Below, one piece after another: positions 22,837 through 24,985 of a DNA stretch of 64,000 nucleotides. The stretch's first letter is position 1, and each line of letters begins with the position of its first letter. The translations under genes and the position numbers were made by a program. The notes beneath the pieces were generated by a model that saw nothing but the letters and a program-made list of their open reading frames with translations, did no database searches and was not told where the DNA came from. The stretch is from contig JANQEK010000014.1 in the NCBI GenBank assembly GCA_028278405.1, forward strand, positions 1 through 64,000, read 5' to 3'. Source of the DNA: Nitrospinaceae bacterium (GTDB lineage: Bacteria > Nitrospinota > Nitrospinia > Nitrospinales > Nitrospinaceae).

Positions 22837-22943
22837 TCCCCACCTGCCTGAACCCACCCTGTTTTTTTGGGCAACTCGTTAAAATAAATGTTTTTGGATC
22901 AATTTATTGTTTAGCTTTTATTTTCGCTTTTTATTCGCTATAC

Positions 22944-22951
22944 TGTACTTT
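22944..22951. repeat. left target-site duplication of the IS1595-type element
   Basis: TGTACTTT directly precedes the left inverted repeat and is repeated exactly at 24783-24790. Eight bases is the usual duplication for IS1595-family elements. Confidence 0.9.
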
Positions 22952-22965
22952 CGCGTTTATCCCCT
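22952..22965 (+). repeat. left terminal inverted repeat of the IS1595-type element
   Basis: CGCGTTTATCCCCT is the exact reverse complement of 24769-24782. Similarity continues imperfectly inward (TATGTA at 22971-22976 and GTGTATA at 22985-22991). Confidence 0.92.
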
Positions 22966-23028
22966 AGGAGTATGTATCATGGTAGTGTATAATTTAGCCC
23001 ATTCCGAGCTAGTCTGGAGGGGTGGATT

Positions 23029-23712
23029 ATGGAACTTGGCGACCTTTGGAAATGGATCGAAAAAATATGGCCGGAGTTGCCTATGATCCGGCAAGTCTGG
23101 AAAACCATGTTAACTCTTATTTTCTTGGTTGTGGTTGTTTTATGGTGGATTTTCGAGTACAGGTTTTCAGATAGCGTGAATTCACTTATTGAACAAAAAG
23201 AATCAGTCAAAGAGCAAATGAGTGTTGTTGAAAAAACTAACGATTTTTTACAAGCTCAGCTTGACTCTTACCAGAATAAATTTCCTAATCAGACACCAGA
23301 AGAAATTTTAAAACAAGTAGAAGGTCTTCGTGAAAAATTAACAAAATTTGAGCCACGCCAAATAACCGAAACAGAAAAGGCTCGAATAATCCCCATATTA
23401 GACCTTAAAGGTAAGCCAACTCCTAAAATAGAGATATTTTGTAATAATGATGTGGAGAGCAATAACTACTGTAAACAATGGGTAAAAATTTTAATTGAGT
23501 CAGGTTGGACTGGGGTTGATAAAGAAGTAATTCGGTCGGCTGTAAGTTTCCCGCCATTTAAAGGGGTTATTATCGGTGTTAAAAATAAGAATATAGTTGG
23601 TGCAGGAAATCTTCAAAAAGCCTTTAAAAGTCTTGGTATAAATGCTCAAGGCGTAATTAAGCCAGCGTTAAAAGAAAATACAATAATGTTGGACATAGGA
23701 GAAAAGGGGTAA
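23029..23712 (+). CDS. transposon passenger: membrane-anchored coiled-coil protein, unknown
   Basis: Encodes 227 residues. A short N-terminus leads to one hydrophobic span (about 28-44, LTLIFLVVVVLWWIFEY), then a predicted coiled coil (about 52-105, EQKESVKEQMSVVEKT) and a C-terminal globular domain (about 115-227) with two Cys (FCNNDVESNNYC) and ending GVIIGVKNKN...FKSLGINAQGV...NTIMLDIGE. Codon use is AT-rich compared with chromosomal neighbours. The ATG follows GGAGGGG. It lies inside the IS1595-type element, upstream of the convergent transposase gene, so it moves with it. No family is recognised; it may be a sensor or signal-transducing envelope protein. Confidence 0.75.
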   Translation: MELGDLWKWIEKIWPELPMIRQVWKTMLTLIFLVVVVLWWIFEYRFSDSVNSLIEQKESVKEQMSVVEKTNDFLQAQLDSYQNKFPNQTPEEILKQVEGLREKLTKFEPRQITETEKARIIPILDLKGKPTPKIEIFCNNDVESNNYCKQWVKILIESGWTGVDKEVIRSAVSFPPFKGVIIGVKNKNIVGAGNLQKAFKSLGINAQGVIKPALKENTIMLDIGEKG

Positions 23713-23716
23713 ATGA

Positions 23717-23893
23717 ATGTCGCGCGGGAAACACCTAAGCCTCGAAGAGGCCCGTAAGAAAGACCAACTCAAACAGTTTGCGAAAGAGCGTCCATCCAAG
23801 GGTGACGAAAAGCTCTTTGATGAAACGTTGAAGCGTATGGCGATCAAACCTAAAAAGCCAAAATCAGGCGGTCGAACATCAAAGAAGGATTAG
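23717..23893 (+). CDS. small basic protein inside the IS1595-type element
   Basis: A 58-residue frame, MSRGKHLSLEEARKKDQLKQ at the start and a Lys-rich end (KPKKPKSGGRTSKKD). It starts 4 bases after the stop of the passenger gene, so the two are probably cotranscribed. Its last 44 bases overlap the 3' end of the transposase gene on the opposite strand. The composition is consistent with a nucleic-acid-binding or unstructured helper protein. No family is recognised. Confidence 0.55.
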   Translation: MSRGKHLSLEEARKKDQLKQFAKERPSKGDEKLFDETLKRMAIKPKKPKSGGRTSKKD

Positions 23894-24707
23894 AACGCAT
23901 GTTGTATCGATACTCAAACTCACCCAAATATTTCGGCAGGTGTTTCTTGGAGACATGGACATGAGTCCCGCGAATACTCCGCTTGATCTGGCTCCAGAAT
24001 CCCTCAATGCTGTTGGTATGGTGGATGCCGTTAACGTATTCCTTCACGCCATGCTTTACCGTGCCATGCTGATACCCGTTATGCTTAAGATCTTTGTAGG
24101 ATTTCCATTCATCCGAGCTAATCATCGTTCCCTTTTCAATCTTTTCGTCAATGATGGTTCCGAGGGTGCGCTCCGTCAGGTCAGGGACAACGCGGGTCAT
24201 GACATTGCCTTTGCGTTCCACCATTCCAAAAATCTTGGACTTGTTAGAGAACCGTCCCTCTTTTTCAGGTCGGTGTCCGCCAACATAGGTTTCATCAATT
24301 TCAACGTGGCCCGAAAGGTTGTCGTCACCGTCCACCTGGCCCATGTATTTACGAATCTCATGCGCCATGCGCCAAGCACACTTGTATGTTACGCCCAGCT
24401 GCCTTTGAAGCTCTTTAGCCGCGACCCCATGTCGGGAAGTCGTGAACAGGTAGATCGCGTAGAACCACTTTTGAAGCGGGGTGCGGGACCGGTGAAACGG
24501 AGTCCCCGCCATTGGGTGGATATGGTGTCCACACCAAGCACACTGATAGGCAGGCATTTTCTTGATACGGGAAAACTTGCCGTATTTTTCACACTTAGGG
24601 CATTCAAATTCAAGCCCGTAACGTATTGACATTAAATGACTTATACAGGAATCATCATCGGGAAAGCGTTTAAAGAAGTCACTGACTGTAAACCCTTTGT
24701 TTTTCAT
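23850..24707 (-). CDS. IS1595-family (ISXO2-like) DDE transposase
   Basis: Encodes 285 residues. An N-terminal zinc ribbon (CPKC...CAWCGHH, about 36-60) is followed by TPLQKWFYAIYLFTTSRHGVAAKELQRQLGVTYKCAWRMAHEIR, typical of the family, and by the DDE catalytic domain: Asp in HVEIDETYVGG, Asp in ISSDEWKSY, and the last acidic residue in the NSIEGFWSQIKRSIRGTH segment (N/E variant of this family). It is full length with no frameshift, so the element may still be active. It starts ATG at 24707, inside the right end of the element. Confidence 0.95.
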   Translation of the reverse strand: MKNKGFTVSDFFKRFPDDDSCISHLMSIRYGLEFECPKCEKYGKFSRIKKMPAYQCAWCGHHIHPMAGTPFHRSRTPLQKWFYAIYLFTTSRHGVAAKELQRQLGVTYKCAWRMAHEIRKYMGQVDGDDNLSGHVEIDETYVGGHRPEKEGRFSNKSKIFGMVERKGNVMTRVVPDLTERTLGTIIDEKIEKGTMISSDEWKSYKDLKHNGYQHGTVKHGVKEYVNGIHHTNSIEGFWSQIKRSIRGTHVHVSKKHLPKYLGEFEYRYNMRSNPSLMFDRLILAF

Positions 24708-24768
24708 GGCTTAGGCTCCTTTCGAGTACCAGTTGCCACTAATATACACCCTGGGCCTACATATGTCA

Positions 24769-24782
24769 AGGGGATAAACGCG
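24769..24782 (-). repeat. right terminal inverted repeat of the IS1595-type element
   Basis: AGGGGATAAACGCG is the exact reverse complement of the left repeat at 22952-22965. Confidence 0.92.
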
Positions 24783-24790
24783 TGTACTTT
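24783..24790. repeat. right target-site duplication of the IS1595-type element
   Basis: TGTACTTT directly follows the right inverted repeat and equals 22944-22951. Confidence 0.9.
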
Positions 24791-24805: not shown

Positions 24806-24985
24806 ATGGTCACACATCCGGTGAATAATATTGAAGAAGAAATTCATCCTGAGATGGAGCTTCTGAACCAAACTTGCTTGGATTTGGCAGCTCAGATTAA
24901 GGAGCTCAAAAAGGAGAATGCTTGGTTAAAAAAATTGATTCAGGAGAAACAAAGGAGAGGGGCGGAGATGTCAGACAATACCTGA
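24806..24985 (+). CDS. small coiled-coil protein, unknown function
   Basis: Encodes 59 residues, mostly one amphipathic helix (EMELLNQTCLDLAAQIKELKKENAWLKKLIQEKQ) with heptad spacing, in the style of SlyX or ZapB-type small proteins but without a clear match. The ATG at 24806 has AGGAGGAG at ideal spacing; an in-frame GTG at 24782 would lie in the transposon end and is rejected. The transposon lies only 15 bases before this ribosome binding site, so the native promoter has probably been displaced. It is convergent with the large kinase gene ending at 24996. Confidence 0.65.
   Translation: MVTHPVNNIEEEIHPEMELLNQTCLDLAAQIKELKKENAWLKKLIQEKQRRGAEMSDNT

Follow-up and report, generated by a model that had tools for sequence, protein, structure and literature searches.

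We have found that positions 22952 to 24782 of the window, i.e. of the whole 64,000-nucleotide stretch that was analysed, hold an intact 1,831-bp element of the IS1595 family, and the reading that we prefer, at a probability of about 70%, is that of an autonomous "transporter IS", in which a fixed core would be combined with a swappable cargo gene. The core would consist of the two ends, the transposase gene and a small companion gene that is encoded convergently and overlaps the 3' end of the transposase gene; the transposase would be driven from a -35 box inside one of the ends, and the slot for the exchangeable cargo gene would lie between the companion gene and the other end. The features of the element are as follows (strand in parentheses, where one applies).

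22944..22951: left target-site duplication TGTACTTT, read directly; present as a single copy at the empty site of sister genome G016
22952..22976 (+): terminal inverted repeat on the cargo side (25 nt), complementary to the other end at 84% overall and without mismatch over the first 14 bases
23029..23712 (+): cargo gene, 227 aa, predicted to encode one membrane helix, a coiled coil and an alpha/beta C-terminal domain; no family match
23717..23893 (+): companion gene, 58 aa, SLEEARK type, with an F-x2-LL-like core motif; relatives in most related elements, under protein-level selection
23850..23893: antisense overlap of 44 bases between the companion gene and the 3' end of the transposase gene, from the ORF coordinates
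23850..24707 (-): IS1595-family transposase, 285 aa, with zinc ribbon and DDE domain (NF033547, PF12762, PF12760)
24741..24769 (-): promoter-like TTGACA-17-TATATT for the transposase, 11/12 consensus, with its -35 box inside the terminal repeat
24758..24782 (-): transposase-side terminal inverted repeat, pairing with the cargo-side end
24783..24790: right target-site duplication TGTACTTT, read directly

An earlier note on this DNA had described an intact IS1595-type element with passengers, perfect 14-bp inverted ends, an exact 8-bp target duplication and a full-length transposase, and each part of that description has held: the ends, which may resemble those of ISNwi1, pair perfectly over their first 14 bases and at 84% over 25 nt; the same 8 bases flank them on both sides (the chance of an exact 8-bp repeat at one fixed offset is about 1.5e-5); and the transposase is complete, three curated models placing it in the IS1595 family (NF033547, 3.6e-65; PF12762, 2.9e-42; PF12760, 1.2e-8). 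The search for an empty site, which the note had suggested as a check, was conducted by joining the two flanks and running them against related genomes; in the sister genome G016 the alignment spans the junction, with a single target and zero insert. The element occurs once in its own 3.16-Mb draft genome, and the other suggested check, i.e. the same passenger at other sites, came back empty, as the 227-aa cargo was not found in a second copy or at another site anywhere searched; the mobility of this exact unit therefore rests on the ends, the duplication and the empty site.

On one side of the insertion point stands a TATACT box, on the other the ribosome-binding site of a small gene for a coiled-coil protein (24806-24985), and the stretch around it is conserved in the sister genome. 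This gene encodes 59 aa and is SlyX/ZapB-like in appearance; as the element separates it from the TATACT box, which is conserved and lies on the other side of the split (22911-22943), its expression may be silenced. Within the left flank, 24 bases (query 575-598) recur exactly elsewhere in G015 and G020, two sister genomes, in the manner of a repeated promoter element.

Among the related elements described below, TTGAC occurs in 32 of 45 transposase-side ends, versus 8 of 45 cargo-side ends; in the first set of elements, it is found on the transposase side only in 22 and on the cargo side only in one. Judged by consensus matching, the transposase-side end would thus double as a putative -35 box, which would also account for the divergence between the window element's two ends beyond base 14.

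The 227-aa gene is true, exchangeable cargo. Its product has no family match in Pfam, NCBIfam or PADLOC; it has a long coiled coil and an alpha/beta domain that is ill-defined in a single-sequence structure model of low confidence (pLDDT 58), and weak coiled-coil matches link it to Rz-like spanins. Homologue searches returned nothing convincing in viral contigs, plasmids, phages and solved structures, or in the sampled genomes of the phylum and of the class of the L008 host, one of these searches having been run without a positive control. Nor was there a confident match in the 77 genomes of the phylum besides its own; the passenger in place in relatives that lack the element, which the earlier note had named as contrary evidence, was thus not seen.

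In order to place the element, about 85,000 species genomes were scanned for the transposase, which yielded 70 loci, and elements were delimited by similar ends together with an 8-bp repeat, a rule that worked for most of these loci. The 46 delimited elements (the first set, the window element, L118, L126 and L127, and L115; i.e. 45 and the window) range from 1,524 to 3,490 bp, with a median of 2,014 bp, and therefore none of them is transposase-only; passengers are more than an occasional extra here, since every delimited relative in the branch is too long for a transposase alone. A length that does fit a transposase alone, about 1,054 bp, is seen in L130, which we used as an outgroup and whose flanking repeat has two mismatches. 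The end pairs that a script proposed for L049, L067, L069 and L072 were set aside as fortuitous pairings in AT-rich sequence. In the tree of the 70 transposases, the outgroup sequences fall outside the cargo-bearing branch, and the window transposase belongs to a supported set of six elements (97/92), the other five of which come from Proteobacteria. Host phyla are mixed along the tree, a pattern that fits horizontal transfer, with the caveat that most of the hosts are metagenome bins. On a short Chitinophagaceae contig (L047, ~897-912), a second transposase-like ORF lies near the transposase end, convergent with the first; the facing ORFs are either two copies or a palindromic assembly artefact.

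The second enclosed gene behaves differently from the cargo. Both genes had been called unrelated to transposition; that description is correct for the 227-aa gene, and it does not suit the 58-aa gene, which starts 4 bases past the cargo stop and travels with the transposase in most related elements. Its relatives, found across many phyla, are convergent with the transposase gene and usually overlap its 3' end, and they exist either free, as small proteins, or joined to a passenger as its tail; with the exception of a protease clade, a companion stands beside the transposase in nearly all loci with a transposase at least about 53% identical. Short ORFs with the F-x2-LL core occupy the convergent slot in Bacteroidota, in candidate phyla and in one Lokiarchaeota-binned contig too. 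Five loci (L016, L019, L021, L072 and L074) have a companion that lies apart from the transposase end, yet is conserved. The companion was present, mostly once, in 26 of 26 re-searched genomes, which had been picked for having it, and in 3 of 369 sampled genomes of the class of the L007 host, two of the three being already known, so the companion-bearing element type is uncommon. A tblastn search of 72,556 plasmids with a hand-made consensus query found nothing, although L126 is a plasmid element that has a diverged companion. A literature search found no description of the companion. In another genome of the same phylum, a lone companion-like ORF (L003, G046, 1483-1659; LKEAREKGKLKEFIKERGK...) has no transposase nearby and is possibly the remnant of an old insertion.

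The relationship among these short proteins was examined by held-out profile tests, in which profiles trained on one group were scanned on the other groups. With the window-group profile, 8 ORFs of the antisense slot appear in the top 12 of 6,365, against an expectation of 1.9% (p 5e-12, an approximate value, as the slot had been noticed before the profile test); with the distant-group profile, the best outside matches among 15,913 ORFs are members of the window group, followed by the protease tails. Between companions, the pairwise difference is 0.39 at first, 0.28 at second and 0.61 at third codon positions, and Ser and Leu are each spelled by six codons in their invariant columns, which indicates that the companion is protein-coding and under selection at the protein level. 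Companions diverge in step with the transposases: the two sets of distances correlate, with a Mantel r of 0.71 (p 2e-4) overall and of 0.47 in the close subgroup. The structure model of the companion (mean pLDDT 74) has three short helices, the last of which bears the motif; the C-terminus of the transposase holds a similar sequence, MFDRLLxSF, on which profile comparison aligns the companion motif exactly, at a moderately unusual score that 3 of 200 column shuffles equal. Mimicry of the transposase C-terminus is a lead, suggested by this weak resemblance.

The cargo, in turn, is discordant with transposase relatedness across the elements that we compared. Across 406 pairs of elements, the ten whose transposases are closest (72-84% identical) have no detectable shared cargo, and the seven pairs with related cargo have transposases that are 55-68% identical, some of them sharing no more than the N-terminal membrane part. 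Different cargo is also borne by the second elements or partial copies that occur in two genomes (L115 and L113). A membrane helix is predicted in the cargo of 22 of the 30 companion-type elements. Recognisable cargos are a PemK toxin (L021), a Peptidase_M78/CapP-like protease with a membrane protein (L014 and L074), a SocA_Panacea antitoxin with a membrane protein (L072), Trypsin_2 (weakly in L033, above the cut-off in L063) and a type II methylase (L054); these named cargos point to maintenance or defence functions, most cargo having no assignment. The partners of the Panacea antitoxin (L072, 5392-6258) and of the M78 proteases are small, family-less membrane proteins, and are candidate membrane toxins. 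In an alphaproteobacterial clade (L033, L034, L035, L037, L039, L041, L044, L063 and L119), one conserved trypsin-like passenger, with an SGSPVF motif in most members, carries a C-terminal tail related to the companion (NPxHREDFxxLVxAA).

The two genes of the window could also be read as a toxin-antitoxin-like or effector-immunity pair, i.e. a membrane toxin with a promiscuous small antitoxin, whose addictive effect stabilises the element. Panacea antitoxins neutralise many toxins, and such a pair would agree with adjacent genes whose starts and stops nearly touch or overlap, with the prevalence of membrane-helix cargo (the 22 of 30 elements above) and with the PemK, Panacea and M78/CapP-like proteins among the cargos. 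We consider it unlikely, however: the companion correlates with the transposase while the cargo changes; L072, L014 and L074 keep a companion despite having a recognisable antitoxin or protease of their own; one clade has the tail fused to its trypsin-like passenger; and no known toxin or antitoxin family is matched by the 227-aa protein (Pfam, NCBIfam, PADLOC) or by the 58-aa protein (Pfam, NCBIfam). Less likely again is a companion ORF without any protein role in transposition, where the convergent transcript, antisense to the transposase mRNA, limits transposase expression; the overlap with the transposase 3' end (44 bases in the window, and an overlap in most relatives too) speaks for such regulation, but the selection on the protein, with six codons at each invariant Ser and Leu column and third positions the most variable, argues against it, as does conservation of the companion in the five loci where it lies apart from the transposase end. 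A third idea, that transposon ends happened to enclose two host genes in a one-off capture, is favoured by the lack of relatives of the 227-aa cargo in any collection searched; we reject it as very improbable, because in the sister genome the site stands free of these genes and because the architecture recurs in dozens of elements.

We therefore return to the transporter IS with a fixed core, of which the 58-aa companion is better seen as a part, together with the ends and the transposase. The transposase would move the whole unit, and the element would have crossed phyla; cargo exchange, which we infer from distant elements and not from a recent swap caught in the act, would proceed through recombination between the companion gene and the cargo-side end. 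The membrane-anchored coiled-coil cargo may benefit or addict the host, to judge by sister elements, whose cargos include toxin, antitoxin, protease and methylase genes. Because the companion stays while the cargo changes, we tentatively propose, as the least certain step of this reading, that its target is the transposition machinery and not any one cargo, possibly through a resemblance to the C-terminal helix of the transposase. A broader proposal is rather more doubtful: that a wide IS1595-type branch, extending over several bacterial phyla and Lokiarchaeota-binned contigs, has an unrecognised accessory protein with a transposase-C-terminus-like helix, free or fused to cargo, which serves as a fixed point for cargo swaps in minimal shuttles of 1.5-3.5 kb.

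IS elements are usually counted as transposase-only; this branch looks like a very small vehicle that spreads interchangeable accessory genes, sometimes toxin- or defence-like. The whole branch bears cargo: most of it consists of unannotated membrane proteins, the rest includes toxin, antitoxin, protease and DNA-methylase genes, and which cargo is on board can hardly be told from the transposase. If the companion is indeed part of the machinery, it would be a handle for finding such elements and their cargo systematically, and the branch would offer a simple system for the study of gene gain and exchange in the smallest transposons.

Members of the IS1595 family have a DDE_Tnp_IS1595 catalytic domain with an N-terminal zinc ribbon, generate an 8-bp target duplication and usually consist of a lone transposase gene (PMC8101967). 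The window transposase has these domains (PF12762, PF12760, NF033547) and TGTACTTT stands on both sides, but two further genes lie inside the element, which is therefore a transporter IS and not a simple IS. Transporter IS (tIS) of the IS1595 family, e.g. ISNha5, were described by Siguier, Gagnevin and Chandler (2009), as that account is relayed in PMC11891212 and PMC8101967; they combine an IS-type transposase and ends with passenger genes outside a direct role in transposition, the passenger of ISNha5 being a transcription regulator (PMC11891212). The 227-aa cargo within the ends, together with the empty site in a relative, agrees with this definition, with the role of the 58-aa gene as a caveat.

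The transposase-only L130, located on an X. citri plasmid, represents IS1595 sensu stricto (ISXO2-like); its transposase is related to that of the window at the family level (about 31% identity), and unlike the window element it lacks a companion and lies outside the cargo-bearing branch. Among unrelated systems, the toxin-antitoxin modules of Tn3-family transposons, in which the pair sits by the res site and other passengers vary elsewhere (PMC7157771), similarly make accessory genes an integral and exchangeable part of a transposition module, but Tn3 elements are replicative transposons with a resolvase; Tn7-like transposons (PMC8649781) likewise carry diverse accessory and defence cargo on a constant core, with unrelated machinery and far larger cargo. 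At the family level, the window element is of a known kind, i.e. a transporter IS of the IS1595 family, and shares with ISNha5-type elements the transposase domains, the 8-bp duplications and the passengers between IS ends. In a comparison made without ISfinder entries, its branch differs from them in the conserved convergent companion and in the change of cargo from element to element; the division into a fixed core (ends, transposase and companion) and exchangeable cargo goes beyond the earlier note.
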